A DNA stretch of 64,000 nucleotides, from contig NC_091672.1 in the NCBI RefSeq assembly GCF_042453785.1, positions 997,001-1,061,000 of the forward strand. Direction: 5' to 3'. The position numbers were made by a program, and so were the translations under genes. Positions within the stretch are counted from its first letter, which is position 1. Every line of letters begins with the position of its first letter. Below are positions 6,777-30,585 of this stretch, in pieces. Under the pieces are notes generated by a model, which had not been told where the DNA came from, searched no databases, and was given only the letters and a program-made list of their open reading frames with translations. This DNA comes from Malus domestica. Lineage: Eukaryota > Streptophyta > Magnoliopsida > Rosales > Rosaceae.

Positions 6777-6835
6777 TGATTTTGGAAGTGTGCTCGAATT
6801 TCTTGAACGGAGAAAGAGATGAGAGGTAGAGATGG

Positions 6836-7009: not shown

Positions 7010-7460
7010 AAATGGCCGTTGGGCTTGATCTAAGGATGAACGTTCTTCAAGGGCCGTGGACTTGATCTTGAAGGTGGATTTGAGCGGATCTTCAAATGGG
7101 CTTTTGGGCTTGATCTTTGAAGAACAGTGATGAACGGATCTCCAGGGGCTTTTGGGCTTTGATCTTGAAGAACGGTTGGACGTGTGGATTTGTTGATGTT
7201 GTTGATCCAAGGGGCCGTCGGGGCTTGATCTTAGAAGAACGATGAACGAAGAACAAAGAACACTTTCTTCAAGGGCCGTCGGGGCTTGATCTTGAATTTG
7301 GTGGAAGTTCTTCACGGGGCCGTCGGGGCTTGATCTTGAAGGTGGATGATTGTTGATCCAAGGGGTCGTCGGGGCTTGATCTTGGAAGAATGATGAACGA
7401 AGAACGAAGAACGAGGAACACTTTCTTCAAGAGCCGTCGGGGCTTAATCTTGAAGGAGGA
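7010..7460. repeat. Tandem repeat inside the LTR (about nine units)
   Basis: The core GGCCGTCGGGGCTTGATCTT recurs about nine times with spacings of roughly 30-70 bases. It is usually followed by GAAGGTGGAT or GAAGAACG. The copies starting near 7200, 7271, 7316, 7361 and 7431 are the most alike; those before 7150 are more degenerate. The repeat lies between the TATA-like block and the LTR's 3' end. Confidence 0.8.
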
Positions 7461-7585
7461 TTTGATGAAGAACGAAAAGGGCTTTCTTGATCTTTCGGGA
7501 ATTGCTTGAGAGCTTCGGAGTTTCAGAGCTTCAGAGCTTCAAGGTGTAATATGAATTCCTCCTTTCAAATGAATGAATTAGCCTT

Positions 7586-7595
7586 CTATTTATAG
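7586..7595 (-). promoter_or_regulatory. TATA-like box of the LTR promoter
   Basis: The minus strand reads CTATAAATAG about 210 bases inside the LTR start. That position and orientation suit transcription of the Tat element. Only the motif supports it. Confidence 0.45.
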
Positions 7596-7804
7596 AAATT
7601 TCCAAGGCCTAATTTTGAATATAATATTCCAGATGAAATAAGTCGTTTCTGCCAGGTGTTGACACGTGTCCTGTTTGATGACTTTTCCAACTTATTTCGA
7701 TTTTTTGTTTAGACACACGCTACGTGTAAAATTTATGTAATACATGAGCGTTGAAACTTTGATTTATCGGTCAACATTTATTTACCAAAATTTCGATGTC
7801 TACA

Positions 7805-8221
7805 GTTACATGGCTTACGTTCAACTCCCGGGTCAATTTGTATGGAATTATCAATAACCGTTGAACGATAAACGTTCCTCCCCTGACCCTTACAATGCAA
7901 AGAGTCTTGTTAGTTTGGGATCGTCCCATATCAATAACTGTTGAAATTATCAACCAAATTAAGGAAAATTGTGTGAATTGATCCAGAATTGATCCAAATA
8001 GAACTTCACAGAACAACAATCGAGCTTTCAGATCTAAAAATTAAAATACTACAAAATTGTATGTACTTCCCTAAAGAAGTTCGCATCTTTCAGACTCGCT
8101 AACTCCACCTATTCAAGACTAGTCGTCGGTCCTCGGTGAAGCACAGATTCAAAGTTTCCGGCGACGGGTTCCTAATCGGTTTCAGCAATCCATGTTATGT
8201 ATCTCCAGCACCAAGAGTTTG
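7805..8221. other. Spacer between the Tat element and the lyase gene
   Basis: This holds the 3' flank and presumed 3' untranslated region of the minus-strand lyase gene. I see no convincing coding sequence. The first five bases (GTTAC) would be the target duplication of the Tat element, but its other side is outside the window. Confidence 0.5.
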
Positions 8222-11168
8222 TCAGACCCCTTTGTTGATTTCAAGTTTTGTAACCCAATGATCGAGCTGACTGGCGACGCATGCTGACCCTGTGGAACCA
8301 TACGAGGAGAATTTCTTCACTGCATTCTCTACTCCGAGAAATTCGTATACATCTTTTTCAAACACTGGATCGATACTTTTGAGCTCATCGACACTCAATG
8401 CCTGCAGTTCGCAACTTTTTGAGACGCACACGGCAACTGCCCTTCCAACTATGTCATGAGAGGTTCTGAAAGGTATTCCCTTTATAAAACAAGAGAAGCA
8501 ACTTCAGTAGCAATTATTTACAAATGTTATGAACTACATGTGATCGTAAAACGCGTAAATAGAATTGTGATTTCAAGTTCAGAAGTTCTAAGCTCCGTCT
8601 ATAATTGGCAAAAATGAAAGTTAGTCAAGAGAACTTGCCTTTTTCACGAGATAATCGGCAAGCGTTGTGGCATCAAGGTGACCAGCAGGTAAACTCTTTT
8701 GTATTCTCTCCCTGTTAAAGGTAATGTTCTGTGCAAACTCTGCAGACACTTCAAGCATCCCCAATATTGTCTTCACGCTGTCGAAGACAGGCTCCTTATC
8801 TTCCTGTCTCAAGGGGAAAAGAAAGAACCCTTTGTAATCATATTCAAAATATTGCAGGATTAGTTAAAAGAGCAATGAATTTTATATACGGTAAATGCAA
8901 GCGGAATAGATCCTTTTATGTAGCATTGTGTTTGTGCATAAGTAAAGTAACACGCATGCAAATCCGTCTAAGAACTTAGCTTCAGGCTCGAGAACGTAAA
9001 GAGTGGACAGACCCAACTGAACCCCTGCCCGTCCGTGCTGATTGCATGTAAATTCAAAAAAGAAAAGAAAAGATTATACCTGTAAATCACGATTGTAAGC
9101 AAGGGGAAGTCCCTTGCACAATGTGAGAAGGGTAACCAGGTCTCCTACTACTCTAGCGGACTTTCCACGAACAAGTTCCATTGGATCTGGATTTTTCTTC
9201 TGAGGCATGATACTACTTCCTGTTGAAACCTTGTCACTTGGCGTGATAAATCCAAACTCCTCTGAAGCCCACAGTACCCATTCTTCACCAAGCCGGGAGA
9301 GATGAATTGCTGTGATGGCGTTAGCAGAAAGAAACTCCATGACAAAATCTCGGTCTGACACTGCATCAATACTACATTAAGAAAAGAAATAAATCATTAT
9401 TTGATGAAAACACATATAAAGAAGCATGAAATACACAACCAACCACAAGATTTAGACGCAACAGATGGCACCAAGAAACATTGACACTCATTTAACTGAC
9501 ATCATTGGGCATACCTAATGTACTTGTATGACTTCACGGCAAAGCGTGATGAATGTATGATAAGTTGAACAATTGCATTTGCCAACAAGTGGATAAACAT
9601 TATTAATCTTTGTTATTGTTAATGTAAGAAACAGGGAAATAATAATCAATCCTAAGTTAAAAGAAAAGATAATGTATCAGCTGCTTCTTTCACAGAGTTC
9701 CATGCAATTTTTTTATTAGAATGAAAAGCGAAATTGAACCATACAACTATAATCATGTATGTTTCAGTCTCATGTGCATTGGAAGGGAAAACCGGAAAAA
9801 GAGATGGTATGAGAATGCCATAAAGTAATTGACTAATTTGTTAACTATTGACCAGTTTACAACATCTTTTGCAGAGTACCAATGAAACAAAAAGGCAACA
9901 CAGCTCCATGCTGCCGCTCACTAGCACCAGTCAACTTCGATCCCAGCCAAGGAGTCAAACCAAGGGACATACCTGTTCCTCATAGGAGCAGTGAATTCTA
10001 AAGCATCAGAGGTCATAAACCGATCAATTGGAAGTCCTGTGCCGGCCAATGCACAAGCGCCTAAAGGGCAGAAATTCAACCTCACTCTGCAATCCAGTAA
10101 ACGGCCAGCATCACGTTCAAGCTACATAACAAGAAAAAGTGCCAAAATTAGTCTCTTCCAAAGGCCATGCATATACTGAGGCCAAGAAAACTCCATAAGC
10201 TTCAATTTTTATATGGCAATAACAACAAATCGACAAAATCATACATAAACCAACTATCAAGCCTCTAAAAACACTACAAACAATGCATGATTACAAAGCA
10301 ACTACCACAATACAAGGGCCAGAAACCATATAAATATATGTTAATAAGTTAAGAGCAAACCTGCTCAACAAATGCCAAGAGCAAATGCTGAAGCAGAACA
10401 GGTTGAGCCCTTTGCAGATGCGTGTAACCAGGAACAATCACACCCTCGTTCTTCATTGCCAATTTGACGAGCGAAACTTGAAGATACTTAATCTTCACAC
10501 CAATTGCATCAATCGCGTCTCGGATCCACAATCGGAAATCTGTCAAAACCTGATCGTTTCGGCTCCGAGCCGTGTGGAGCTTCTTAGCCGGTTCGCCGAT
10601 CAAATCAGTCAGCGCTGCCTCAATGTTCATGTGCACATCTTCTCTGTCGGTCCTCCATTCAAACTCACCACTCTCAATTCGCCTTTCTATCTCGCTCAGC
10701 CCCTCGTGGATGCTATCCCGGTCATTAACAGTAATCAATCCCTAGAACATAATAAAGAATAAAGCTTCCCCTCTAACCAAACAGATCCCAGAAAAAACAA
10801 AACTGAAAGAAACAAAAAAAAAATGAGAAAAGAGAAAGTACCTGTTTGGCTAGCATGGAAGCGTGAGCCTTGCTGCCCATGATATCATGCTTGTAGAGGG
10901 CTTTGTCGAACGAGATGGACTCAGTAAATCGCTCGACAGCGTCAGTCACACTCTCCTCAAAGCGACCACCCCAGAGCTTGGCCTCCTTGGACTTGGGGTC
11001 AGTGGATTGGGCCAGGGCGGCACATCGGACCTCCAGCTTGGGCATTTGTCTGTGAGATTGCAAAGACGCCATACGAAAGGGTCGAAGGTTTTTTGGGATG
11101 AAGTGGTCATGTGAGGGAGAGCTGAGTGAGAATGAGTTGTTGAATACAGCTAAGGACTCCATGTTCAT
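8222..11168 (-). CDS. ASL: Argininosuccinate lyase, plastid-targeted
   Basis: Cleaves argininosuccinate to arginine and fumarate, the last step of arginine synthesis; the plant enzyme acts in plastids as a homotetramer. Exons on the minus strand: 11168-10842, 10741-10361, 10121-9973, 9371-9080, 8803-8639 and 8479-8222, totalling 1572 nt or 523 residues, the usual plant length. The first ~50 residues are rich in serine, proline and basic residues, as in a transit peptide. The mature part contains [33 protein letters not shown] (catalytic His region) and the fumarate-lyase signature [12 protein letters not shown] near residues 337-348. Phases match at every junction. Junction 5 needs a GC donor (separate entry). 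The ATG at 11168 is the most upstream; a second ATG lies six bases inside. A possible 5'-leader donor at about 11885 is unproven. Confidence 0.95.
8480..8638 (-). other. GC-AG intron in the lyase gene
   Basis: The conserved protein run [15 protein letters not shown] is only restored if exon 5 ends AAAAAG at 8639 and exon 6 begins GGAATACC at 8479. The intron then starts GCAAGT and ends AAAG. AG|GCAAGT matches the strong donor form known for the minor GC-AG class. No GT donor nearby keeps the frame. Confidence 0.85.
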
Positions 11169-13917: not shown

Positions 13918-13922
13918 GCAAT
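13918..13922. repeat. Left target-site duplication GCAAT
   Basis: GCAAT directly precedes the element end TGACACACCC and is repeated exactly after the other element end at 28063. Five bases is the normal duplication length for LTR retrotransposons. Confidence 0.85.
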
Positions 13923-14280
13923 TGACACACCCCGTCCCGAAGGAGGGCATGCTGGCCGTCACGTGAGAGTGACGTAACCATTTGCACAGTACGGAAGCTT
14001 TAATTATACAATTTATAAGTTGATACACCCGAAGGTGAGTCCTAATTTTGTCCAATCTGTCAGAACCCCGCTGTATTCCTCGTAGTCACCACACCTTTGT
14101 GATTCCTGAACCTGGAGGGGCGCAAAACCAAAATTGAGTGGGTCAGTAAAACAATTCTTTTCCAAATCCAAACATTTCTCAAAACGTTGTAACCCCTCTC
14201 CGTAAAACCTGTATACTTTCCCAGAAATGTAAAATATAAATATACATATATATTCTCAATACTTCATTTCACTTTTTCAA

Positions 14281-14397
14281 CATTTTTCATATCAGTTATG
14301 CCATGCCACATCATCTCAACATTTCTCATATTAATTATGCCATGCCACATCATCTCAACATTTCTCATATTAATTATGCCATGCCACATCATCTCAA
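14281..14397. repeat. Three 39-bp tandem repeats in LTR A
   Basis: Each unit contains TTATGCCATGCCACATCATC and begins at 14281, 14320 and 14359. The related plus-strand LTRs carry only two units (near 20730-20808 and 27270-27345), so copy number separates the LTR versions. Confidence 0.85.
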
Positions 14398-14804
14398 CAT
14401 TAATAAGGTATGAATGCATCAACATAATCATATCAGGTGCAAGAAAGTAATCAACCGTAGGCCCTCTAATAGCCCTGTACGGTTGAACCTAGAGCTCAAA
14501 ATCTATCATTATCACTCTACCGGAGTCACCTCTGTGACCCGTCCGGCCTTCTGCACGCAAGTTACGCTCTAGTGCTTCTTATAAATCATCTGTGCACATA
14601 ATCTAAGGTCACCCACCAGTCGGAATCTCACTAACACTCTCGCGACTGGTCTGTCGTACCCACTCCGCGTGGACTGTACGACTAGCATCTACTTGGATCC
14701 AAGGCGAGCGTGCGATGCGGTGAATACTATAAGCACTAAACCATGGTGCAGGATTTGAGCTCAATATATATCATCATCATCATAACAGTAATTAAATACT
14801 CACC

Positions 14805-14948
14805 TGTGCGTCCACCGCACCATTTCATACATATGCATCATAAATCAATTCTTACTTGTGCGTCCACCGCACCAATTCATACATATGCATCATAAATCAA
14901 TTCTTACTTGTGCGTCCACCGCACCAATTCATACATATGCATCATATA
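14805..14948. repeat. 52-bp tandem repeat in LTR A
   Basis: TGTGCGTCCACCGCACC recurs at 14805, 14857 and 14909, each followed by a CATACATATGCATCAT block. The corresponding part of the plus-strand LTR (about 26815-26850) has a single unit. Confidence 0.85.
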
Positions 14949-16629
14949 TTAATTCATGCATGGCATTTCAACTCACATTTCTATATACTTTTCATATCAA
15001 TTCTATGCATGATATTTCACTTCCCGTTTTTCCACATAACTCATATGCATTTCATTTTAAACATATTTTCATTTCAATTCAATTTCTGGGAAACGTCAAG
15101 TATATATATATATACGGAAAACAAAACTGCCCACTCACCTGGAGTTCGCCCTACAACTCCCTAGCACAATACGCCAAGGCGTCATGACGATCGGCGCCTC
15201 AAACAATAATCAATTCCAACCTCAGAATTCATATCGATAAAATATATAACTTATATAAAATACGTCACTACGTAGATTGATCCGGAAGATCCACCCCTCA
15301 GATTTTAAATCCATAACTTCCAGAGGTCCACATTATACCTCTAGGACAACATCCTAAAATTTCATTACCATCCAACGGTCGGATCTCCGTCAATTTCCAA
15401 AACTAAGTGACGGTTAACATTTTATATTATGGACTTACAATTCCAATTCCGGAAGATCCGCAAATCGGATTCCCAATCTGTAAGTTCCAATAATCCTCAA
15501 ATATTACGTATTGCAACGTATCAAAGTTTGGTGACGATCCAACGGTCGGATCGTCAATTCACATTTTCACCTAAATGTGAAAATTATAAAACGTTATTTG
15601 AACACCTAACCAACAATCCTCAATAACTTTCTCATACGGTGTTCAATTTAGGTATATGAATATACCACAGTGATCTACTCGACGTCACGGACGTCGACAT
15701 ATTTTTAAAATAATTTTATTTTTATTTTTTATTTTTACTGTAGCACCTTCTTCTTCCTTGGGTCGCCGGACTGGTTTTTCCGGCGGCCGTTTTCCGGGCA
15801 GTTTTTCAAATTGCCATAACTTTGTCATTTCTCAACGAAATCAAGTGATTCAAAAACGAAAGTTGTAGCCCTTGAAGAGACAAAGAGAATGGTACCTTGC
15901 ACAACACCTAGTTAGCCGTATTTTGGCCGCAAAATGCCTCGAAAGCCTCGGAGGTCGCCGGAAACTGGGTATTTTTCAAATGAGTATAACTTCTTCAATA
16001 CTCAACGAAATTGAGTGAAACAAAAAGGAAAGTTGTAGTACTTGACGAGACGAAGAGATTGATACCTACCTCGACTCCTAACTCGCCGGGGATTCGCCGG
16101 AAAATTCCTCGAAAGCTCCGGCCAAACTTTGAACTTGTCAATCTCCGTGTTCTTACGTCCAAAAACTTCCAACGAAGCACTCCGAGCTTCCTTGGGACCT
16201 CACTAAGCCCGCTGTGATCTTGTTTTAGCCTAAAACGTAGTCATTTAGAAGATCATGAACAGTACCATTTCACGGGAACTTTGAAACTAGGGTTTTTCGA
16301 AGCAAAACTTACCTGAAATTGATGTCTACGTGATCGTGGAAGTTCCAGGAGTCCAAATGTGGTCTTATCTTGGACGTTTGTTTATGTTTTAGGTGGTTTT
16401 GGGTGAGGTTGAGCGTCGGAGAGGAAGAGAGAGAACTGAGAGTGAGAGAGAGTCGTGAGGGAAGAGAGATAGAGAGACAAGGTACGGGAATTGGGGAAGG
16501 TTTTGAGGGATGTGGGGATCCCACGTGTCCAACTCAATCCAAATTGTTAAATTTTCGCCCCTTAGTCCCGTTTAAGGGCATTTTCATATTTTCATGTCCT
16601 CGGAATTAAAATTCCGGGACGGGCTGTCA

Positions 16630-19600
16630 CAATCTTCCCTCCTTATAGAATTTCGTCCCCGAAATTCCAGCAACCAACTAAATCAACCATACTCCAACAA
16701 TAGCTTCGGGTAAATCTTTCTCATCCGATTCTCTTTCTCCCACATACTTTTCGACTGAATGATTTCCTTCACAAAGCTTTTACTACTTACTCTGTCTTAA
16801 TTCTCAGGACCTTCTTTTTCCAATCCAAAGTCGTCCTTGGTTCCTTATCAAGTCGAATCCAATTTAATTCTCAATAGTTGCACCATAATTCCATGAGACG
16901 ACTCTGTCACTTAGTGACAACGCATCGAACACAAAATACATTAAGTACCGTTGCCCTGTCTGGGAAAAAGTTATTACTCAGCACTGGAGTAATTGTACTA
17001 ACTTGGTACATTGATCAACTATCACTTCAAATTCGATCATAACCATCCTATGTACAAGGAAACTTGTACACATAATCCAAAGTAATATCTTTCCAATTCC
17101 ATTGCGAAACAGAAAATAGTTATCTCAATCCAAAGGTTTATCTCTTTCTGCCTCAATCTGCTGACCAAATAAAACTGTCGAATGGTATGATAAATCTTAT
17201 TACTTTTGGAATATTGCAGAAGTTGAACAGTGAACTTCGTCCAATATTTGCTTGCTTCAAATCCTCAGCATTAGGCACATACTTTTTGTTTTCTTGTATC
17301 CACATACCATTTGATTCACGAATCATGTACTCATTCTTAACTTTACTTTAGTTGGTTTCCAATCCACAAGAAGATAACCATGGCAAGCGTACCAGATATT
17401 AATTCTTACTGCAGTCTTCTTATCAAGTGCTTCAGTTACAACAATTCACGATCGCCCTGATCGTACAATCATAATCACTAAGTAATTCAATCCACCCTTG
17501 TTGCCTCATATCAAAATCCTTCCAAGTAATGGATATTGAAGACTTTTTGGATTCGTAAAAAAAAATCTTGCATTCTTATCAACATATAATGTCTCCATAA
17601 CTTCACAGCAAGGATGATAATCGTGACTTCCAAATCACCAGTAGGGTAATTCATCTCATGAGGTTCCATTTGTCGTGAAACATATACAATCACCCTAACA
17701 TTTGCATCAACATGCCTCCAATACCATTCAAGAAACATCACTAAAAATTTATGATTACCACTATTCTCTGGGATTACTAAAATACGTGCATGAGTGAGGA
17801 AATACTTTAGTTGTTGAATCCTTTGCTCACAATTTCCTTCCCACTCATACATGACCTCTTTTCTCAACAGTCTCGTCAATGACAAAGCAATGACTAAAAA
17901 TTCTTTCACAACCATCCAAAATAGCCTGGTAAGCTAAGAAATTCCAAATCTCAATTACGACTCGTGGTTGTTCCAAATTCTCAATTTCTGCTATCTTTTA
18001 AGGATTCACTTGAATACCTTAAGAATATATAACAAATCTTAGAATGCCACCTGATTCATCTAACTTTAGCATTTGCTACACTTAGCATACAATCGACATT
18101 CTTCCAATCTTTATTCCACCGACTTAATACGTTTACATGCTCTGCTCTGGCTCAGAATATGCCAGAATATCTTCAATGAAAATGATATCTATTTATCAAG
18201 GCATTATTGGAATACTTCATCCAATAACTCATAAAACAGCATGAGTATCCATATAGCATCACCATAGTTCATAAAACAATCTTAAGAACAACGTCGCTCA
18301 TAATCTTTAATTGGTAATAACCAGACCTCAATTCAATCTTTGAATCTTCGCAATTACTTCTGAGCTGGTTAAATAAACATCAGTACATCACCATGGATAA
18401 CGGTTCTCAATCGTTACCCAACTCCATTGTCTATAATCAATGAACAGTCTCAAGATCCATTTTCTTCCTCACCAACAAACTGGGGCTCCTCAAAAGTGTT
18501 GTACTAGGTTGAATGAAACTTTTATCAACCAATTCTTTCAACTGAATTTCCAATTCCCTTAACTCATCCTGAACTAATCTCCAATATAAATTTATACCTG
18601 GCAACAAATCAATAATGAACCTCATATCTCTGCCTGAAGGCAATCCAGGTATACTTTCAAGGAAGACATCAAGAAAAGTCTAACTCTTTCGACATTATTC
18701 ACACTACTCCAAACAACATCATTTAGCACCACATGAGCTAAGTATTTTTGACAGCCTTTCGAAAACAATCTCTTTGCTCTCACAGCATACATAACAGCCT
18801 GACTCAATCCATTTTGCATACTTACAAAAGTAATCTCTGTTCATCCAGATCGATGGAAAGTACTGGTTTCCCATAACATTTCGTCTTGTCACAATTATAA
18901 CCAACCAATCTAATGGAACAGAATTAACTGATACAATATATATTTTATTATTATTAAGCATTCCAAATAAGTACATTACTAACATAAAATAATCTACCGG
19001 GTTGCTTGCTTAACGAATCCACGAATGAGTTATTAATATTACGGTCTGCAGCCCGCAATACTGATAAATCATCGTTGTCTCGATAAGTAGGCAACCACTC
19101 TCAAAGATATAACATTACTATTTTGTCACTCAATGCAAAATACATACACTCATCTCAACTACATTTATTTACTACTCTCAAGGTAATAACATACATAATA
19201 AGAAATATATCAGCCGAAGTCAACTAGAATGACCAATACGGCTGATTCAACTCTTATCTTAATAATACGTCGGCCGGATCCACTCCGCGTGGTCGGTACG
19301 GCCGAGCCTATAACTCACTAATTTCTCATGTGTCAATCGAATCCACTTCTCATGGTCTGTACAGCTGAACATATAACTCATCAAATCTCTCTGTACTCAC
19401 GGTCAATCCGACCAAACTACTAAGTCCATAACTCTGCTGAATCGACACTATGATATCATGGAAAATTATTGAGTACAACTGATTCTAGGGACGATTCACA
19501 ATTCTGTGTCCCCTCTGTTCACATAAACACATTCATTAATTTCACATTTCCCAAAGTGTTAATTTTGTACCTGCTGCACAAGGTACATTTCCTTTACTCG

Positions 19601-20230
19601 AGACACCTTGCCTCAAATATCTGGGATTACCAGTATATCCATCACTTTTACTCTGACCAGCGACATTAAAACCTCAGCTGGAAGAATTAACTCTAGCTTC
19701 ACTTCTTTCGAAGCTCTGAATCTTTCTATATCCTTGATATGACGAATCATTAACTTTATCGTCAACTTCCTTGATTCACATTTGCAAACTCTTGCTTACT
19801 ACCATCGATAAATGCCGGAGGGATAAACTTTTCCTTAAAAAATTTTAAATCGGCTGATTCCTCTCGTGACAACAATTAACATTCCTGTTTCCACCAGGAT
19901 ACAATTTCATACCCAAAACCAGGTAGTCGTCTCGACCCACCTGTCAGAAGGAAATTTCCTTTAACTTGCATATTCCGAAACATCTTTTCCAATTGGTTAA
20001 TCCGTCACTTCGTTCCCTCAGGTTGATCATTCCATAAGGTGATTCAAATTCAACTCATAACCCGTCTTAAAATGTCCCTTTAGACAATAGACTGAATCAC
20101 CATAGTAATAGTTTCCCCCAAAACCGCTAAATTAGGGAGACTAAGTTCCTCTAACTACGTGGTTTGCTACGAGGCGGTGTAGTTCTGACAGAATTCACTA
20201 GAACTTCTCAAAATGTCCAAGATTGCAACC
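16630..20230 (-). pseudogene. Degenerate chromovirus-like internal region (minus copy)
   Basis: Fragments on the minus strand match Ty3/gypsy Pol: 18643-18437 (IDLLPGI, LRELEIQLKELVDKSFIQPS; start of reverse transcriptase) and 17915-17511 (LTRLLRKEVMYEW, LVIPENSG, VSRQMEPHEMNYPTGDLE, LWRHYM; the RT to RNase H connection). No frame stays open over a full domain. Near RNase H the expected catalytic strand is replaced by a shifted reading (FLEWYWRHVDANVR). The plus copy at 21445-25443 has the same shifted reading. Near the 3' end, GGGGACGAAATTC and the polypurine tract precede LTR A. The element cannot encode its own enzymes. Confidence 0.8.
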
Positions 20231-20246
20231 ATGCTCTGATACCAAT
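20231..20246 (-). other. Initiator-Met primer-binding site between the Cassandra LTR and the gypsy body
   Basis: The minus strand reads ATTGGTATCAGAGCAT. TGGTATCAGAGC complements the 3' end of plant initiator tRNA-Met. It follows the Cassandra LTR end directly and leads into the gypsy leader (ATGGTTGCAATCTTGG), so the chimeric joint falls on the primer site. Confidence 0.85.
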
Positions 20247-20532
20247 TGTCACATCCCGGCCCGGGGTGGATCACTTCCCGGGCCCGCTCCACCACCGTAG
20301 CACGATATTGTCCGCTTTGGGTCCCGATCACGCCCTCACGGTTTTGTTTTTGGGAACTCACGAGCAACTTCCCAGTGGGTCACCCATCCTGGGAGTGCTC
20401 TGGCCTCCTTCTCGCTTAACTTCGGAGTTCCTACGGAACCCGAAGCCAGTGAGCTCCCAAAAGGCCTCGTGCTAGGTAGGGATGGGAATACACATTTAAG
20501 GATCACTCCCCTGGGCGATGTGGGATGTTACA
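20247..20532 (-). repeat. Cassandra TRIM LTR (minus), serving as 5' LTR of the minus body
   Basis: This 286-bp LTR starts TGTAACATCCCACATCG and ends CCGGGATGTGACA on the minus strand, the standard Cassandra ends. It has the same length as the copy at 27778-28063 and contains a 5S rRNA-like block. Its 5' end abuts the truncated plus-strand LTR at 20533. Confidence 0.9.
20352..20458 (-). promoter_or_regulatory. 5S rRNA-like block in the Cassandra LTR
   Basis: The minus strand contains ACTCCGAAGTTAAGCG and AGGATGGGTGACCCACTGGG, which match the conserved A-box and C-box region of plant 5S rRNA genes. GGGAGCTCAC and GTGAGTTCCC at its borders can pair like 5S helix I. In Cassandra this block is known as an internal RNA polymerase III promoter. 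It is not a ribosomal gene. Confidence 0.85.
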
Positions 20533-21167
20533 ACAGATGATTTATGAGAAGCACTAGAGCGTAACTTATGTGCAGAAGGCCGTACAGGTCACAGAGGTGA
20601 CTCCGGCAGAGTGAGAGTGATAGATTTTGAGCTCTAGGTTCAACCGTACAGGGCTATTAGAGGGCCTCCGGTTGATTACTTTATTGCACCTGATATGATT
20701 TATGTTGATGCATTCATACCTTATTACTGTTGAGATGATGTGGCATGGCATAATTAATATGAGAAATGTTGAGATGATGTGGCATGGCATAATTAATATG
20801 AGAAAATGTTGAGTTAATGAATTGAAGTATTGAGAATATATATATGTATATTTATATTTTATATTTCTGGGAAAGTATACAGGTTTTACGGAGAGGGGTT
20901 ACAACGTTTTGAGAAATGTTTGGATTTGGAAAAGAATTGTTTTACTGACCCACTCAATTTTGGTTTTGCGCCCCTCCAGGTTCAGGAATCACAAAGGTGT
21001 GGTGACTACGAGGAATTCGACGGTGTTCTGACAGATTGGACAAAATTAGGACTCACCTTTGGGTGTATCAACTTATCAATTGTATCTTAAAGCTTCCGTA
21101 CTGTGCAAATGGTTACGTCACTCTCACGTGACGGCCAGCATGCCCTCCTTCGGGACGGGGTGTGTCA
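20533..21167 (+). repeat. Truncated plus-strand large LTR (E)
   Basis: It matches the 3' part of the LTR at 25444-27707 almost base for base for several hundred bases. It starts abruptly at ACAGATGATTTATGAG and ends GGACGGGGTGTGTCA. The 5' part is missing where it meets the Cassandra LTR. It is the 5' LTR of the plus-strand body. Confidence 0.85.
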
Positions 21168-21240
21168 GTTGGTATCAGAGCCAGACTCACGGCCGTTCGG
21201 TGTGCCGACGAGGACGTCGGTCTCCCTAAGGGGGGTGGAT
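21168..21240 (+). other. Primer site plus TRIM internal domain
   Basis: GTTGGTATCAGAGCC follows the LTR end. Next comes a short domain with GTGCCGACGAGGACGTCGG and a purine-rich end (AAGGGGGGTGGAT). The same pieces in the same order form the Cassandra inner region at 27708-27777, so this is a TRIM inner part joined to a gypsy LTR. Confidence 0.8.
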
Positions 21241-21430
21241 TGTAGTATCCCACATCGACAACGTGAGGGCTGTCCTTGGGCCTTATATGTATTCGCTCGC
21301 ATGTACTCTTCAGAGACGCGTTTTGGAGCTGCGGCTTGCAAAAACAAACCCGTGAGTGGGGTCGGACCGGTGCGCCGGGTTCCACCACAAAGCGGACAAT
21401 ATCTCTGCGGAGGAAGGCGTGGTATACACA
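21241..21430 (+). repeat. 190-bp TRIM LTR without a 5S block
   Basis: It begins TGTAGTATCCCACATCG and ends GGCGTGGTATACACA. It is followed at once by GTTGGTATCAGAGC and the gypsy leader. Its first bases resemble Cassandra, but it lacks the 5S-like block and is nearly 100 bp shorter. I do not know its family name. Confidence 0.7.
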
Positions 21431-24400
21431 GTTGGTATCAGAGCATGGTTGCAATCTTGGACATTTTGAGAAGTTCTAGTGAATTCTGTCAGAACTACAC
21501 CGCCTCGTAGCAAGCCACTTAGTTAGAGGAATTTAGTCTCCCTAATATAGCGGTTTAGGGAAAACTATTATTATGGTGATTCAGTCTATTATAAAAAGGG
21601 ACATTTTAAGACGGATTATGAGTCGAATTTGAATCACCTTATGAAATGATGAACCTGAGGGAGCGAAGTAACGGTTTAACCATTTGGAAAAGATGTTTCA
21701 GGTTATGCAAGTCAAAGGAAATTTCCTTCTGACAAGGGGTCGAGACGACTACCTGGTTTTGGGTATGAATTTGTATCCTGGTGGAAACAGGATTGTTAAT
21801 TGTTGTCACCAGAGGAAACAGCTGATTGAGAATTATTTAAGGACTTGTTTAAGGAAAAGTTTATCCCTCCGGCATTTATCGATGGTAGTAAGCAAGAGTT
21901 TGCAAATGTGAATCAAGGAAGTTGACGATAAATGAATATTATAGAAAGTTTTCAGACTTGCCTCGTTCCATCCAGATATTTGAGACAAGGTGTCTCGAGT
22001 AAAGGAAATGTACCTTGTGCAGCAGGTACAAAATTAACACTTTGGGAAGTGTGAAATTAATGAATGTGTTTATGTGAACAGAGGGGACACAGAATTGTGA
22101 ATCGTCCCTAAAATCAGTTGTACCCAACAGTTTTCTATGACATCGTAGTATCGATTCAGCAGGTTTATGGATTTAGTAGTTTGGTCGGATTGACCGTGGG
22201 TACAGAGAGATTTGATGAGTATGTTCAGCCATACAGGCCACGAGAGGTGGATTCGACTGACGCATGAGAAATTGGTGAGTTATAGGCTCGGCCGTACCGA
22301 CCACGCGGAGTGGATCCGGCCGACGTATTATTGAGATAAGAGTTGAATCAGCCGTATTGGTCATTCTAGTTGACTTCGGCTGATATATTTCTTATTATGT
22401 ATGTTATTACTTAGAGAGTAGTAAATAAATGTAGTTGAGACGAGTGTATGTATTTTGCATTGAGTGGCAAAATAGTATTGTTATATCTTTGAGAGTGGTT
22501 GCCTACTTATCGAGACAACGATGATTTATCAGTATTGCGGGCTGCAGACCGTAATATTAATAACTCATTCGTGGATTCGTTAAGCAAGCAAACCGGTAGG
22601 TTATTTTATGTTAGTGTTGTACTTATTTAGAATGTTCAGTAATAATAAAGTATGTATTGGGTCAGTTAATTTTATTCCATTAGATTGATTGTTTATAGTT
22701 GTGACTAGATGGAATGTTACGGGAAACCAGTTACTTTCCATCGATCTGGATGATCAGAGATTACCTTAATGAGTGGGCATGCAAAGTGAAGTGAGTTCAG
22801 CCATTATTTATGCTGTGAAAGCAAAGAGATTGTTTTGAAAGGCTGCCCAAGAATATTTAGTTCATGTGGTACTAAAGGATGTTGCTCGGAGAAGTGTGAA
22901 AAAAAATAAAAAAATAAAAAATAAAAAAAAAATGAAAAAGGGGTTAGACTTTTCTTGATGTCTTCCCTGAAAGTATACCTGGATTGCCTTCAGGTAGAGA
23001 TATGAGGTTCACTATTGATTTGTTGCCAGGTATAAATTTATGTTAAAGATTGGTTCATGATGAGTTAAGGGAATTGGAAATTCAGTTGAAAGAATTGGTT
23101 GATAAAAGTTTTATTCAACCTAGTACAACGCTTTGGGGGAGCCCCAGTTCGTTGATGAGGAAGAAAATGGATTTTTAAGGCTATCCATTGATTATAGATA
23201 ATGGAATCGGGTAACGAATGAGAACCGTTATCCATTGTGGTGTATTGACGCTCATTTGATCAGTTCAAAGGTGCTTGTATATTTTCAAAGATTGACTTGA
23301 AGTCTGTCTATTATCAATTGAAGATTATGAGTAACGTTGATCATAAGATGGTTTTTCTGGACTTGTTATAGTCTTTATGAAGTTTGGTGATGCTATATGG
23401 ATACTCATGCTGTTTTATGAGTTGATGGATGAAGTATTCCAATAATGCCTTGATAAATAGATATCATTTTCATTGAAGATATCCTGGCATATTCTGAGCC
23501 AGAGCAGAGCATGTAAACGTATTAAGTCGGTGGAACAAAGATTGGAAGAATGTCGATTGTATGCTAAGTTTAGCAAATGCGAATGTTAGATGAATCAAGT
23601 AGCATTTCTGGGATATGTTATATATTCTTAAGGTATTCAAGTGAATCCTTAAAAGATAGCAGAAATTGAGAATTTGGAACAACCACGAGTCGTAATTGAG
23701 ATTTGGAATTTCTTAACTTACCAGGCTATCTTGGATGGTTGTGAAAGATTTTTCAGTCATTGCTTTGTCATTGACGAGACTGTTGAGAAAGGAGGTTATG
23801 TATGAGTGGGAAGGAAATTGTGAGCAAAGGATTCAACAACTGAAGTATTTCCTCACTCATGCACGTATTTTAGTAATCCCAGAGAATAGTGGTAATCATA
23901 AATTTTTAGTGATGTTTCTTGAATGGTATTGGATGCATGTTGATGCAAATGTTAGGGTGATTGCATACGTTTCACGACAAATGGAATCTCATGAGATGAA
24001 TTACCCTACTGGTGATTTGGAAGTCACGATTACCATCCTTGCTGTGAAGTTATGGAGACATTATATTTTAGTGAGAATGCAAGATTTTACAAATCAAAAG
24101 AGTCTCCAATATTTGTTTACTCAGAAGGATTTTGATATGAGGCAAGGAAAGAAAGGAAAAAGAATGAGTACATGATTCGTGAATCAAATGGTATGTGGAT
24201 ACAAGAAAACAAAAAGTATGTGCCTAATGCTAAGGATTTAAAGCAAGCAAATATTGGACGAAGTTCACTGTTCAACTTCTGCAATATTCCAAAAGTAATA
24301 AGATTTATCATACCATTCGACAGTTTTATTGGTCAGCAGATTGTGGCAGAAAGAAATAAACCTTTGGATTGAGATAACTATTTTCTGTTTCGAAACGGAA

Positions 24401-25443
24401 ATGGAAAGATATTACTTTGGACTATGTATACAAGTTTCCCTGTATACAAGATGGTTACGGTCGAATTTAAAGTAATAGTTGGTTAACGTAACAAGTTAGT
24501 ACATTTACTCCAGTGTTGAGTAACAACCTTTCCCAGACAGTGCAACGGTACTTATTTGTTTTATGGAAAGAGAATTGGATTACGGAACTGCTGAGTTTCT
24601 TAAGTATGTTGGTTTCGCCAGTTTTCAAAGTAACGCCATAATGTCCATGAAACGTGTTATATGTGTTGATTTTTGCTGAATTGTGGATGGAATGCTTCTG
24701 GGTAGAGAAAGATTCGATCACAAAAGAGTTTTAGTAGACCCTGAGACTATGGATGAGTCTCCTCAAAGTATTCATGTGATTAAGTTAACCTGAAGTAACC
24801 AGGAATGGCAAAAGAGATCAACAGATGGATATGCCACTAATCGAGTATATAAGGTAAATGGTTTTATATTTTCGAAGTGTTCACCATAGAAAAGTTTAAT
24901 TCGGGTTGGAAAGGAAGGCAAGTTAAATCCTAAATGAATCGGACTTGGCGTGATCATCGAAAGGTTGGTGAAGTTGATTATAGAATTGAATGGCTTCCAG
25001 AGTTGTTGTAAGTGCATGATGTGTTTCATGAGTCGATATTTTGGAAAATTCACCACGAACAAAAATGGCGAGAATTGGAAAGGAGACACATCAGACCATT
25101 TTTGATCACTAAAGGAATCAATAAAGTTGCATACAAGTTTGTGATGCCTTCAAAATTGGCTAAGGTGCATAAGGTATTATATTTCGATGCGTTGTCACTA
25201 GGTGGCAGATTCGTCACATGGGATTCTGGTGTAACTATTGAGAATTAAACTGGATCTAATTAGTGAGGAGCTAATGACGACTTTGGATTGGAAAAAGAAG
25301 GTCCTGAGAATTAAGACAGAGTAAGTGGTAAAAGTATTGTGGAGGAACCATTCAGTGGAAGAAGCTACTTGGGAGACGGAAGAACGGATGAGAGATATGT
25401 ATCCGAGGCTATTTTATGAGTTTTGTTGGGTTGGTTGGTGGCT
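21431..25443 (+). pseudogene. Degenerate chromovirus-like internal region (plus copy)
   Basis: This is the inverted counterpart of 16630-20230. It starts with the primer site GTTGGTATCAGAGC and the leader ATGGTTGCAATCTTGG. Pol remnants are ELEIQLKELVDKSFIQP (about 23060-23120), the RT to RNase H part at 23735-24175 with SRQMESHEMNYPTGDLE and LFTQKDFDMRQG, and the integrase end at 25012-25248 (RRHIRPFLI, VAYKFVMPSKLAKVHKV). VKVLWRNHSVEEATWE, characteristic of chromovirus integrase tails, lies near 25327-25375. Stops and shifts abound, and an A-rich expansion lies at 22897-22938. The polypurine tract is gone. Confidence 0.8.
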
Positions 25444-27707
25444 GGAATTATAAATTCCGAGGACGTGAAAGTACTAAAATATCCCTAAACGGGATTAAGG
25501 TGTGTAAATGTATGACATTTGTTTTACTCTAAGATCCTAAACTGGGGTTAGATTTATATTTGTATGTGTTAAATTGTGTTTGGACTTAGGTAGGGCCTCC
25601 TACCCTCAAAACATTCCCTAAAACCCGTAACCTTTCCTTCTCTCTTATTCTTCTCAGAAAACTCTCTCTCACTCTCTCTCTTACTCTCGAACTCACGGCA
25701 ACCACCAAGAACCACCACAATCTTGTACCAACGTTCCATTTAAGACCACCATCGAACTCCTGGAACCTCCACGATCACGTAGACACCAATTTCAGGTAAG
25801 TTTTACTTCGGAAAACCTAGATTCTAAACTTCCCGTGAAAGTGTACTGTTCATGAGCTTTGAATTGGTTGTGTTTTAGGCCAAACTAAGCTCACAGTGAG
25901 CTTAAGGAAGTTCCAAGGATGCTCGAAGTGTAACGTTTGGAAGTTTTGGACGTCGGGATCGTTGAGTTCGACGTTTGGCCGATTTTTGGAATTTTTGGAA
26001 GGTATGATCCCGTGGTTTTTAGTGTTTAAAACCCTTCCATCGTGATTGTACATGTTAAATGCTTCAATTTGGTATAAATTACATGAAAAATGGACGAAAA
26101 ACGAAGGAGAATAGTGGTTTTGAAAAATTACCCAGTTTCCGGCGCCGGCGACGGTCGCCGGAGCTGAAGGTTGAAGGTGACGGAATATTCCGTCAAGTTT
26201 GACGGAATATTCTGACGCCGTTAGTCAGTTTTAACGGAAACCGTTAGTTTTTAACGGAATATTCCGGGAATATTCCTATCGTCGTTCACTGTAGCCGTCA
26301 GTGTGCATGTCACGTGGCCGCGCGTGGGGGGCGCGTAGGCCCGTGCCACGTCAGGCGCGTGGGGGCGCGTGAGAGCTCCAAAAATTATTTTAAAAATATG
26401 GGGATGATCCTGAGGTTGTGTAGGTCACAGTGGTATATTCATATACCCAATTTGAGCAATATATGAGGAGTTATTAGCTAAGAGTGGGATTATGCGTTAA
26501 ATAACGTTAATTTGGTTACTTCTCGTATAGGCGAGGATTATACGGACGTCGGGCATGGCCAAGGGATGCTCAGGGACTTACGAGACGTCGATGTAATCTG
26601 TGAGTGGGCAGTTTTGTTTTCCGTATATATATATACTTGACGTTTCCCAGAAATTGAATTGAAATGAAAATATGTTTAAAATGAAATACATATGAGTTAT
26701 GTGGAAAAACGGAAAGTGAAATACCATGCATAGAAGTATATGAAATATATATGGAAATGTAAATTGAATTGCCATGCATGAAATGATATGAATCAAATGA
26801 TATGAATTGTTATATGATGCATATGAATGAATGGTGCGGCGGACGCACAGGTGAGTATCAGGTGAGTATTTAATTACTGTTATGATGATGTTGATGTATA
26901 TTGAGCTCAAATCCTGCACCATAGTATAGTGCTTATAGTATTCACCGCATCGCACGCTCGTCTTGGATCCAAGTAGATGCTAGTCGTACAGTCCACGCGG
27001 AGTGGGTACGACAGGCCAGTCGCGAGAGTGTTAGTGAGATTCCGACTGGTGGGTGACCTTAGATTATGTGCACAGATGATTTATGAGAAGCACTAGAGCG
27101 TAACTTATGTGCAGAAGGCCGTACAGGTCACAGAGGTGACTCCGGCAGAGTGAGAGTGATAGATTTTGAGCTCTAGGTTCAACCGTACAGGGCTATTAGA
27201 GGGCCTCCGGTTGATTACTTTATTGCACCTGATATGATTTATGTTGATGCATTCATACCTTATTACTGTTGAGATGATGTGGCATGGCATAATTAATATG
27301 AGAAATGTTGAGATGATGTGGCATGGCATAATTAATATGAGAAAATGTTGAGTTAATGAATTGAAGTATTGAGAATATATATATGTATATTTATATTTTA
27401 TATTTCTGGGAAAGTATACAGGTTTTACGGAGAGGGGTTACAACGTTTTGAGAAATGTTTGGATTTGGAAAAGAATTGTTTTACTGACCCACTCAATTTT
27501 GGTTTTGCGCCCCTCCAGGTTCAGGAATCACAAAGGTGTGGTGACTACGAGGAATACAGCGGGGTTCTGACAGATTGGACAAAATTAGGACTCACCTTCG
27601 GGTGTATCAACTTATAAATTGTATAATTAAAGCTTCCGTACTGTGCAAATGGTTACGTCACTCTCACGTGACGGCCAGCATGCCCTCCTTCGGGACGGGG
27701 TGTGTCA
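25444..27707 (+). repeat. Large LTR (J) of the plus-strand body
   Basis: It ends GGACGGGGTGTGTCA like LTR A. Its 5' terminus and the polypurine tract are missing: the internal GGCTGGAATT runs straight into AAATTCCGAGGACG, where the minus copy has about 50 more bases including TGACAGCCC. A shared GGAATT at the joint points to a microhomology deletion. A near-identical 3' part occurs at 20533-21167. Confidence 0.85.
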
Positions 27708-27777
27708 GTTGGTATCAGAGCCAATCCCTGGCCGGAAATGTGCCGACGAGGACGTCGGGCCCCTAAGGGTGGTGGAT
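27708..27777 (+). other. Primer site plus Cassandra internal domain
   Basis: GTTGGTATCAGAGCC follows LTR J. The short Cassandra inner part comes next (AATCCCTGGCCGGAAATG, GACGAGGACGTCGGG), with the purine end AAGGGTGGTGGAT before the Cassandra LTR. The complete Cassandra at 62091-62160 has the same inner part. Confidence 0.85.
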
Positions 27778-28063
27778 TGTAACATCCCACATCGCCCAGG
27801 GGAGTGATCCTTAAATGTGTTTTCCCATCCCTACCTAGCACGAGGCCTTTTGGGAGCTCACTGGCTTCGGGTTCCGTAGGAACTCCGAAGTTAAGCGAGA
27901 AGGAGGCCAGAGCACTCCCAGGATGGGTGACCCACTGGGAAGTTGCTCGTGAGTTCCCAAAAACAAAACCGTGAGGGCGTGATCGGGACCCAAAGCGGAT
28001 AATATCGTGCTACGGTGGTGGAGCGGGCCCGGGAAGTGATCCACCCCGGGCCGGGATGTGACA
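27778..28063 (+). repeat. Cassandra TRIM LTR (plus), right end of the composite
   Basis: 286 bp, starting TGTAACATCCCACATCG and ending CCGGGATGTGACA, directly followed by the duplication GCAAT. It has a 5S-like block at 27852-27958 with CTCCGAAGTTAAGCG and GGATGGGTGACCCACTGGG. Its own 5' Cassandra LTR is absent; the gypsy LTR stands in its place. Confidence 0.9.
27852..27958 (+). promoter_or_regulatory. 5S rRNA-like block (second copy)
   Basis: About 107 bases bounded by GGGAGCTCAC and GTGAGTTCCC, which can pair. It includes the conserved 5S interior. It is expected to act as a polymerase III promoter of the Cassandra element. Confidence 0.8.
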
Positions 28064-28068
28064 GCAAT
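28064..28068. repeat. Right target-site duplication GCAAT
   Basis: Exact repeat of 13918-13922, directly after the Cassandra end ATGTGACA. Confidence 0.85.
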
Positions 28069-28464
28069 AATGTGATTCAATCAATTGTTTATTAAATATT
28101 ATTTTCTTTTTTTTTAAACACGTCCAAAACATCTTAAGAAGCGTGTAATGCCGGTTATAAAAAATGTTTTTCGTACGTGCATAATAATGTGATTCAATTA
28201 GTTGTCAAATGCTTGTTTTTTTTTTAAACAAATGATATTATCTATACTAAGGTGGAGGTGGTGAGCTTAGCCTCGCAATGGGCTAGCAATAATGTAATTC
28301 AACAAGTTGTTTATTAAATATTATTTTCTCTATTTTTAAATATGTTCAAAACATCTTAATAGGCGCGTAGTGCTAGTTATAAAAAAAGTTGTTTGCACGC
28401 GTATAATAATATGATTCAATTAGTTGTCAAATGATTGTTTGTTTTTTCTTTCGAACAAACGATA
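28064..28464. repeat. Tandem units derived from a SINE tail
   Basis: Roughly 200-bp units contain GGGCTAGCAATAATGT, GTTTATTAAATATTATTTTC and AATATGATTCAATTAGTTGTC-like blocks. Two lie here and a third at 30380-30585, beyond an inserted element. Part of the unit (ATATTATCTATACTAAGG, TTAGCCTCGCAATGGGC) matches the 3' half of the SINE at 44132-44301. No coding content. Confidence 0.7.
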
Positions 28465-28468
28465 TAAA

Positions 28469-30376
28469 GACCATCTCCAATCCTAACCTAAAACCTAAAA
28501 ATATTTAGCCCAGAAAATTTAGGTTTTAGCCCAAAAACAGTTTTTCTACTCCAACCCTTTTGGCCTAAAATTTTAGCCACAGATTATCAAAAAATGAATT
28601 AAGGCTAATTTTTTTTTATATTAACTTTTTAAAAAAAAAATTATGTAGACTATCCTAAATTAATTATATGAACATTTTAACCTAAAAATATTTAAATTCC
28701 AATAAATTTTGAAAAATCACTAAATCAATACATGAAAATCATGATAAACCACATAAACTTAAAAAAAAAAAACAATTAATAAACCACATAAACTTAATAC
28801 AATCGAAAACTCATAGACTACATAAACTTAATAATGATATCCACCATCTTGACTTGGTGGTGGACTTGGGTGATAGTCTTGAGATGGATCATCATCCTGA
28901 AATATACTCATTGTGGCATTCCTTCGTAAAATTTCTTTTTGCTTACCACGTAAGTATCTCTTTCTCTCTGGAGTGTATTTGTCGATGTCCTCCATTATCA
29001 AATTAGTTTTGTACCTTTCTTGCTTCATGGCCAAAAACATTTGGGCCGATTCTTCTTGCCGACGACATTGGTTTTCGTTCATTCTTGCCATTTCGCTAGC
29101 AAATTGTTCACGTATCGGATCTTGGGACTTCCCTTTTCTCTTTGCTTCCTTTTGCTTATCTCTACCCGAGGGCCTTGGCAAAGAAGAAGTTGGGCTCATT
29201 TAGTCGACACCTTCATTGACATCATTTGGGGTGGGGCTTCATTATGAAATAATCTTCCACATTGTTGATTCGCATCGATTCCCCACCTCGGACAATCCTT
29301 GAGGATGTTCCAAGCATGATGCAACTTAAAAGCTTGATTTTTTGGTGTAGTTCTTGTCTTGTAAATTGCCATTGCTTTGTCACCCTATGCAACAAATACA
29401 TGAAAACAATTAGTTGCAAAATACTATTATGTACATGACAACAAAAATATCAACAAAGAAACTCACAATTTATGAGACGCCCCTTCCACTAGGCATGTCA
29501 ACCATGGCTTTCTCCAAGCTTCCCTTCCACAAAGTGCACGCTTTGTTGATAATCTTCCACCGATCATAAACACCACCAACTTCCCTTTGACCGGCGTTGG
29601 AGTTTTCATGGAACTTATCAACAATTTTACCCCACAAATCCTTTCTATTTTGATTGGTGCCGACGGCACCATCTTCACTAACAAAAATCCATGCCAAACA
29701 TAAAGCAATATCTTCGTCAAATGTCCAATTACAACCTCTAACATGCTCATTTGCCATCATGAAAATTTTGGAAATGAGAAGAAATGGTAGAAAGAAAAAT
29801 TGGAAGAATTGTAGGAGAAAAGTGAGTTTTGTGTGGATATTTGAACAAATACATAGGTATTTATAGAGTTTTTGGTTGAATTTTAAGTTAAATAATGTTA
29901 GCCGTTGGATTTAAATTTGGACCGTTAGATTTTTTTTTTTACCATTAGATTTGATTATATTTGATTTAAACCGTTGGATTCAATAAATATATAAATATAA
30001 AACAAAAAAATAATAATTTGAACCTGGACCGTTGGATTAACCAACAGCCCATTTAAACACAATCGTTGGATCACCAAAAGTAGCCGTTGGGCTGCTTTTA
30101 CTTTCTGACAACAGGGAACACCCCCGCATGGGGCTGTCTGCTTTCAATAATCTGCCAAGGGCGTGTGGCGCGTTGGCGGGTGGAGGTTGGGAAGTGGGCA
30201 ACACAACCCTGGTTTCGCTCTCAGTTGGTGGGGCCCATTTTGCTTTGTGGCCTAAAATTGGGCCAGAGTTTGACATCCATTTGGGTTTTAGGTTTTAGGT
30301 TTATTTTAAGTCATGGGTTGGAGTGGATTTGGGGGGGGGGTAAATTTTAGCTTTTAGGTCAGGGTTGGAAATAGTC
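28469..30376 (-). mobile_element. PIF/Harbinger-type element with ORF1 only
   Basis: The ends are GACCATCTCCAATCC on the left and GGTTGGAAATAGTC on the right, an imperfect inverted repeat. TAA flanks it at 30377-30379, and TAA plus one extra A on the left (28465-28468), the three-base duplication typical of PIF/Harbinger. Inside is a Myb-like ORF1 relic but no DDE transposase. The subterminal part repeats CCGTTGGATT blocks that also occur inverted in the neighbouring element at 30586-31329. Confidence 0.75.
28828..29760 (-). pseudogene. Myb/trihelix-like ORF1 of a PIF/Harbinger element, broken
   Basis: Exon-like pieces are 29760-29470 (GCNWTFDEDIALCLAWIFVSED, a Myb/SANT-type start, then LWGKIVDKFHEN and VYDRWKIINKACTLWKGSLEKA), 29390-29203 (AMAIYKTRTTPKNQAFKLHHAWN, LKDCPRWG) and 29199-28828 (RPSGRDKQKEAKRKGKSQDP, a basic tail with a coiled-coil look). 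This layout matches the DNA-binding ORF1 partner of PIF/Harbinger transposases, also annotated in plants as NAM-associated or GST-T3-like proteins. A one-base insertion in a C run near 29233 and a following in-frame stop separate the last two pieces. The protein is probably not made. Confidence 0.7.
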
Positions 30377-30379
30377 TAA

Positions 30380-30585
30380 GGGAAAGGGGGTGGGCTTAGC
30401 CTAACAATGGGTTAGCAATAATGTGATTCAACTAGTTGTTTATTAAATATTATTTTCTCTATTTTTAAACACGTTCAAAGCATCTTAAGAGACATATATC
30501 GCCGATTATAAAAAAAGCATTTTGCACGCACACAATAATGTGATTCAATTAGTTGTCAAATATTTTTTTTTTAACAAACGATTAA
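30380..30585. repeat. Third SINE-tail-derived repeat unit
   Basis: It carries the same TTAGCCTAACAATGGG, TAGCAATAATGTGATTCAAC and TTTATTAAATATTATTTTC order as the two units before 28464. It was split from them by the Harbinger-type insertion, whose TAA duplication lies at its left edge. Confidence 0.65.

Follow-up and report, generated by a model that had tools for sequence, protein, structure and literature searches.

How does a retroelement come to lie in a chromosome with the U5 (unique 5') end of a long terminal repeat (LTR) at both of its sides? The question is raised by a 14,141-bp block at positions 13923 to 28063 of a 64,000-nucleotide stretch of apple DNA (Malus domestica, NC_091672.1, positions 997,001 to 1,061,000), which we refer to as the window and whose coordinates we use throughout. 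One copy of GCAAT adjoins each end of the block (13918 to 13922 and 28064 to 28068, by sequence reading). We conclude that the block is probably one integration of a single composite complementary DNA (cDNA) derived from three elements, namely two related gypsy-type elements, termed X and Y, and Cassandra, a terminal-repeat retrotransposon in miniature (TRIM).

Both termini of the block are exact LTR ends, and both are U5 ends, of different LTR families. On the left, the block begins with TGACACACCCC, the U5 end, in reverse, of a gypsy-type LTR that we call A; on the right, it finishes with GGGATGTGACA, the U5 end of a Cassandra LTR. An earlier note on this DNA had identified both ends in this way and had placed the whole block inside one GCAAT duplication, and these readings were borne out. 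The block does not follow the plan of an ordinary LTR retrotransposon, with two direct LTRs and a U3 (unique 3') start opposite a U5 end, and it has in common with such elements the short target duplication at exact LTR ends. At fixed block ends, a 5-bp match is expected by chance with a P value of about 0.0013, given the local base composition. The target is itself a repeat, and two other copies of it in the window cross the same point with a single GCAAT (28261 to 28331 and 30388 to 30460, both on the plus strand), as seen when the block flanks were joined by script and aligned to both unfilled copies. One GCAAT pair at exact LTR ends, together with these unfilled paralogs, argues for a single insertion. 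The target repeat is dispersed in the window (28063 to 28465, 30376 to 30582, 44132 to 44217, and 60372 to 60456).

Plant genomes often contain nested and recombined elements (PMC1950507), and X and Y might have been inserted separately, with a deletion or an inversion afterwards. We consider such a stepwise history most improbable: a single GCAAT pair surrounds both elements, the unfilled paralogs pass through this point unbroken, a second element would have had to hit the same 5 bp with a deletion stopping exactly at the X LTR end, and the eight further loci described below would need a like coincidence. Inversion cannot give U5 at both sides, since inverting between the Cassandra LTRs leaves the outermost orientation as it is.

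We then looked into the anatomy of X, on the minus strand. Outward from the central joint at 20532/20533, X consists of a Cassandra LTR (20532 to 20247), a primer binding site (PBS), a degenerate body, and an A LTR whose U5 forms the left terminus of the block. The 5' LTR (20247 to 20532) is a complete Cassandra LTR of 286 bp, as judged from alignment and its 5S boxes; in the comparison with the Cassandra LTR at the right end (27777 to 28063), 285 of 287 aligned bases were equal, leaving 2 differences. The interior (16632 to 20246) is of a degenerate gypsy type, with a remnant of RNase H at 17511 to 17933, a run resembling a polypurine tract (PPT) just inside 16632, and the PBS TGGTATCAGAGC, reversed, at 20233. 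The 3' LTR (13923 to 16631, from sequence and alignments) is of type A, with its U5 end outermost at 13923 and its start, TGTGACAG, at 16631. A genome search with the Cassandra-LTR/PBS/body junction of X gave 170 matches with up to 3 mismatches; the match without mismatches was that in the window alone, and one other had 2. Among the 100 of these matches that were listed, 97 comprised an A-LTR end, the PBS, and the body start, joined as one family, and 3 had a Cassandra-type end (the window, C15:4071185, and C7:25270168, the last with letters behind it unlike the body). These matches indicate that the A LTR is the usual 5' LTR of the body family and that X, with its Cassandra 5' LTR, is the exception. 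A standing family with the Cassandra-LTR/PBS/body order was ruled out, as 2 of the 170 matches (the window and C15:4071185) have 2 mismatches or fewer. The locus G000:C15:4071185-4071217 is the sole other place where a Cassandra-type LTR end stands directly before the start of this gypsy-type body, at 2 mismatches.

The assignment to Cassandra relies on 5S-derived motifs and on the PBS. With box A and box C taken from PMC7215508, both Cassandra LTRs (20247 to 20532 and 27778 to 28063) matched box C at 13 of 13 and box A at 11 of 12 positions; an Rfam scan of the window gave no match at the gathering score, and an ARAGORN scan found no tRNA. The Cassandra parts of the block also have the PBS TGGTATCAGAGC and a short interior beside a 5' LTR (PBS at 27710; reversed at 20233). 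The interior at 27708 to 27777 resembles that of an ordinary full Cassandra elsewhere in the window (61804 to 62449, minus strand), our reference copy, whereas behind the LTR of X a gypsy-type body stands instead. Exact matches to the PBS word occur in the window at 21170, 21433, 27710, and, reversed, 20233, and nowhere else. Apart from the central joint, all changes of family inside the block fall at these four places.

Element Y occupies the right part of the block, on the plus strand. Its 5' A LTR (20533 to 21167, from alignments) is truncated, ends with GTGTGTCA, and is of Y type throughout, including its U5. In the leader that follows, we found a PBS, a Cassandra-like interior, and a PPT-like run, AAGGGGGGTGGAT (21168 to 21240), a unit similar to one at another apple locus, L033, and then a short TRIM-like LTR (21241 to 21430, TGTAGTATCC...GTATACACA), recognized from the repeated units of L033, before a second PBS at 21433. 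No 5S boxes are recognizable in this short LTR (8/12 and 9/13). The interior of Y (21431 to 25449) is again degenerate and of gypsy type, with an RNase H remnant at 23717 to 24175. A Pfam scan of three pieces of the bodies returned RNase H families above the cut-off in two and nothing in one; apart from these matches, the gypsy label of X and Y is provisional and follows known sequence motifs. Y ends with its 3' A LTR (25450 to 27707, the left border being approximate), directly behind which lie a PBS at 27710, a Cassandra interior, and a PPT (27708 to 27777), followed by the Cassandra LTR (27778 to 28063), which closes the block on the right with its U5 end. The right-hand gypsy LTR thus ends at 27707, which corrects the earlier reading. 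That reading also had two gypsy bodies facing each other with their 5' sides at 20532/20533. The inverted arms and the position of the joint stand, and the meeting of two gypsy 5' ends does not: the joint connects the start of a complete Cassandra LTR to the inside of a truncated A LTR.

The bodies of X and Y share 81 to 98% identity in 17 bins of 200 columns over X 20246 to 16942, with lower values beyond, and about 600 bases of Y (approximately 24577 to 25170) have no counterpart in X. Both the bins and this unmatched stretch show that X and Y are different copies. They bear as well on the assembly, since large inverted repeats are error-prone and could be artefacts. Here, the arms differ in every full 200-column bin holding aligned letters, the junctions coincide with exact LTR ends or with a PBS, and three of the related loci described below (L034, L039, and L040) are small enough, at about 400 to 440 bp, to fit within single reads, so that an artefact is hardly credible. 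Nested insertion, inversion, and misassembly were rejected on the single GCAAT pair, the unfilled paralogs, the differences between the arms, and the exact junctions.

The 3' A LTR of Y proved to be a hybrid. In a three-way alignment of the Y 5' LTR, the Y 3' LTR, and the X LTR over the stretch common to all three, the Y 3' LTR shared the state of the Y 5' LTR, and not that of X, at 58 columns up to 27401 (one indel accounts for 38 of them); from 27556 onward, it had the state of X at each of the 8 columns where X and the Y 5' LTR differ. At no column did it differ from both. With 58 plus 8 marker columns and none contradictory, the Y 3' LTR is a hybrid with one crossover and without change of its own. 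A survey of the U5 marker among 12 distinct places, in the window and at the fetched loci, where the marker expression matched, with copies of one place under other locus numbers left out, found the X type at 2 of them, X itself and the Y 3' LTR; other forms were present in the Y 5' LTR and at L030, L032, L033, L035, and L036. The U3 of one RNA joined to the U5 of another is the product of first-strand transfer between two RNAs in one particle, and the hybrid LTR fits what would be expected from co-packaged X and Y RNAs. If, instead, the hybrid was made after integration, by gene conversion from one inverted A LTR to the other, it would be no evidence of shared packaging. X and the Y 3' LTR are identical from 27402 to 27707, as such conversion could leave them. 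We consider conversion unlikely because there is a single exchange border, just past a TATA-like stretch in this LTR (27376 to 27410), and the exchanged tract extends as far as the U5 end, as expected of strong-stop transfer; the three-way alignment revealed no further tract of mixed type in these LTRs.

We next asked whether the same plan recurs in the genome. A search for the A-U5/PBS/Cassandra-interior pattern gave 36 matches with up to 3 mismatches, of which 26 have Cassandra-like ends and 10 an A-type end, two of the latter in the window and the other eight spread over seven further regions (L030 to L036). U5 ends were found on both sides in five of the seven (L030, L031, L032, L034, and L035), and in each of these five the A-U5/PBS/Cassandra run faces an inverted A-U5 at the opposite end. 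L036 is an ordinary A element by reading. A simple A-LTR/Cassandra hybrid beginning with a U3 was not encountered in any of the seven; the U3 start of L033 comes with TRIM units. A second search, with the right end of the block (27715 to 28063) as the query, gave 41 full-length rows at 40 loci. Six of these are U5-U5 loci (the window, L030, L032, L039, L040, and L041), or 5 of 39 when the query locus is excluded. Twenty fetched loci (L045 to L064) have the ordinary LTR-interior-LTR order, one of them (L061) without the first 16 bases of the match; 11 others, judged from the match list, have an adjacent Cassandra LTR on the same strand; and the remaining three are L037, with a foreign LTR before a Cassandra unit, L038, with an internal A-U5 palindrome, and L042, a 5'-truncated Cassandra. 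The 40 loci are those scored out of 3,634 first-look candidates and are therefore not a random sample; from the number of these first-look candidates, Cassandra seems to be abundant in this genome. In total, nine U5-U5 loci were found (the window, L030, L031, L032, L034, L035, L039, L040, and L041), of which the window holds the longest, and the other eight share its plan of a U5 end, a turn-round, a PBS, and a Cassandra interior with LTR.

Each of the nine has its own perfect 5-bp duplication by reading, compared with 16 of 20 ordinary Cassandras by script (one of the ordinary ones, L064, shows no duplication in its flanks by reading). Besides GCAAT in the window, the duplications are CATCT (L030), TTTTT (L031), TTATT (L032), GGTTG (L034), and TATAA (L035) and, on the strand reading into Cassandra, AAGTT (L039), CATTC (L040), and TAGAG (L041); those of L034 and L040 are direct readings rather than script values. 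The turns differ in geometry. L030 has arms matching at 1,823 of 1,823 positions around a 19-nucleotide loop, and L032 has arms matching at 433 of 439 (6 differences) around a 25-nucleotide loop, that is, palindromic arms from one strand as in fold-back cDNA; in the window, two different elements form the arms. L040 and L034 are similar short palindromes, the loop of L040 measuring 8 bases, and in L039 the turn lies in Cassandra's own U5, about 50 bases in all. Among six loci entered for overlap at the turn (L032, L034, L035, L039, L040, and the window), with the unturned course taken from related copies rather than from true parents, the turn was readable at all but L039, and the overlap was 4 nucleotides at each of L032, L034, and L040. 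For a 3' end to prime on its own strand, short inverted overlaps are required, and such priming fits these turns.

From the anatomy, the one duplication per locus, the recurrence, the hybrid LTR, and the changes of family at the PBS, all of which are read from sequence, we infer the order of steps, the shared particle, and the enzymes. The block has the look of aberrant reverse transcription in which transfer took place in trans. One particle would have held RNAs of X and Y together with that of the TRIM Cassandra. First, minus strong-stop DNA of X would have moved to the 3' end of Y, producing a Y 3' LTR with the U3 of Y and the U5 of X. Second, Cassandra plus strong-stop DNA, made of the LTR and the PBS copied from the tRNA, would have been taken up by the PBS complement of X, giving X its Cassandra 5' LTR. 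Third, the finished 3' end of the X minus strand would have run on along the Y minus strand, creating the turn-round joint at 20532/20533. Fourth, copying would have left through the Y 3' LTR into the PBS and been handed to a Cassandra minus strand, adding the interior, PPT, and LTR. The product, with U5 at both sides, could then have been integrated with a 5-bp duplication.

The other eight loci would be simpler: a minus strand folds back on itself or onto another strand, and a hand-over at the PBS follows. The turned-back minus strand would copy toward its own 5' end, through U5 into the tRNA primer, and so acquire a PBS at its 3' end. Since its own PBS template has not been copied, the turned strand must find its second-strand acceptor in another molecule, and turned cDNAs would alone be dead ends. 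Cassandra, with the same PBS, a short length, and a seeming abundance, would be a suitable acceptor, and copying would end at the Cassandra U5. A turn followed by such a hand-over would explain the inverted A-U5 opposite the A-U5/PBS/Cassandra run in the five U5-U5 regions, and the lack of a plain hybrid with a U3 start among the seven. The earlier note had proposed that switching between co-packaged RNAs produced one abnormal cDNA, with U5 at both ends. The single duplication and the unfilled paralogs support that proposal, and the hybrid LTR and the Cassandra-LTR/PBS/body junction, free of mismatches only here among 170 matches, back it further. The recurrence of the plan at eight loci and the changes of family at a common PBS support extending it. 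The eight additional two-tailed insertions in the same genome suggest that these elements are copied in each other's company.

Several observations weigh against this scheme. The Y 5' LTR has a Y-type U5, whereas ordinary second-strand transfer would have copied the hybrid U5 there; it was thus not made by such transfer from the hybrid, and one has to suppose that RNA or DNA of Y itself served as its template. The gypsy-type bodies of X and Y are both degenerate and retain only RNase H remnants, so the enzymes would have come from another element. The inverted-repeat arms at both ends of the 14-kb block offer gene conversion a substrate. At L031, two different U5 ends are joined and the duplication, TTTTT, is of low complexity; the A end of L034 is GTGTCT rather than ...CA; L035 is asymmetric, with an A-LTR U3 joined to a reversed A-LTR U5, and its overlap at the turn is about 10 nucleotides relative to the arm of L036, with one mismatch in its own arm; and in L041, a whole inverted LTR is joined straight to the PBS. 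L031, L035, and L041 are no simple fold-backs, so not every case is one. Finally, no TATA-like sequence was seen by eye directly upstream of 20533, as would suit a 5' end (cap site) of Y RNA at this position, and the central joint has no microhomology (an overlap of 0 nucleotides), whereas four other turns have an overlap.

The central joint, where the exact terminus of the X Cassandra LTR abuts an internal position of the Y 5' A LTR, has a single genome match with up to 3 mismatches, the window itself. Given the lack of microhomology, this step may have been end joining or integrase attack, and the joint may reflect a template jump, an end join of two cDNAs, or attack by integrase on the LTR of Y. 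Alternatively to the third step, two cDNAs, complete or almost so, might have been joined before integration, with the U3 end of X ligated or transferred by integrase into broken or intact Y and the free U5 ends then inserted. At the joint, the Cassandra LTR of X lacks not a single base, as ligation or integrase transfer would leave it, and two-ended U5 integration and self-integration are known retroviral chemistry. A paper in the reference list of PMC12789967 deals, by its title, with autointegration of avian retrovirus DNA. Such joining accounts for the third step in the window only; the palindromes of L030 and L032 look copied from one strand and not made of two joined molecules, and the overlaps at four turns fit priming. 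We regard it as possible, if rather doubtful.

Complexes enclosed in one 5-bp duplication and formed by switching between RNAs were described in Triticeae by Sabot and Schulman in 2007 (PMC1950507). The block resembles these in that two related elements lie within one 5-bp duplication, ascribed to strand transfer between RNAs. The Triticeae complexes have three LTRs in one orientation, head to tail, the middle one shared and the outer ones similar, whereas the block has inverted halves, U5 at both ends, outer LTRs of types A and Cassandra, and a TRIM joined at the PBS; it thus lacks the three LTRs of one family and orientation, with similar outer LTRs, that mark such complexes. The Cassandra elements treated by Kalendar in 2020 (PMC7215508) share with ours box C, nearly box A, the PBS, and, at L031 and L041, tandem units. 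The passages of that paper available to us report tandem arrays, with recombination and template switching named as possible sources, and, unlike the block, contain no inverted LTRs and no Cassandra joined to a gypsy-type LTR. For Onsen, the abstract of Sanchez 2017 (PMC5668417) reports hybrid progeny of two co-replicated copies through pairwise recombination, a likeness to the block; that abstract has no inverted or two-U5 products, and here different families are joined. In the literature searched (partial coverage, through titles and the starts of abstracts), we found no U5-U5, inverted, or palindromic LTR insertion. The earlier note's description of the architecture as undescribed stands to this extent. 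The plan itself is not confined to this locus, as it recurs at eight others.

Self-primed (fold-back) retroviral DNA and self-integration give hairpin cDNAs or odd combinations of U5 and are mostly dead ends. The products found here differ in having been integrated, with target duplications, after a hand-over at the PBS. They suggest that folded-back cDNA can still reach the chromosome and that integrase accepts two U5 ends of different families. We are inclined to view U5-U5 retroelements as a recurrent, undescribed class of insertion: turned cDNAs rescued through the PBS, fossils of particle sharing that name Cassandra's companions, the A family among them. For 278 of 289 TRIM subfamilies, Gao 2016 found no related element with retrotransposase genes (PMC4717578), so few elements are known to mobilize TRIMs. 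Cassandra, likewise, is not known to have an established mobilizing element. U5-U5 insertions log, base by base, which minus strands took which plus strands, and this record makes Cassandra's companions testable by reading genomes. Ordinary annotation may miscall these insertions as nested or broken elements. The inverted repeats that they introduce can also give rise to small-RNA silencing and to rearrangement.

Serial hand-overs at the PBS would, in the proposed scheme, also place TRIM units in the leaders of larger elements and build Cassandra tandem arrays, and serial transfer would be a route to such arrays besides recombination. Two consecutive Cassandra interior/LTR units stand behind the turn in L031 (3396 to 4108) and in L041 (4000 to 4709). 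L033 (G000:C15:22496000-22505900, positions 453 to 8719) starts with an A U3 and contains A LTRs and tandem PBS/interior/TRIM-LTR units, as well as an inverted A-U5 piece and a head-to-head TRIM end; it resembles the outcome of repeated hand-overs and, having no clean duplication, was not counted as a U5-U5 locus. Neither was L038 (G000:C5:2788000-2797900, positions 4636 to 5465), where the A-U5 palindrome lies between a normal Cassandra 5' LTR and the PBS and the duplication matches at 4 of 5 bp. At L037 (G000:C11:6279500-6289400, positions 4560 to 5180), another LTR, ending with TTCTAACA, is followed by a PBS, a Cassandra interior, a Cassandra LTR, a PBS, and other sequence; this Cassandra unit apparently forms part of a larger element's leader, like the TRIM unit in Y (21168 to 21430).

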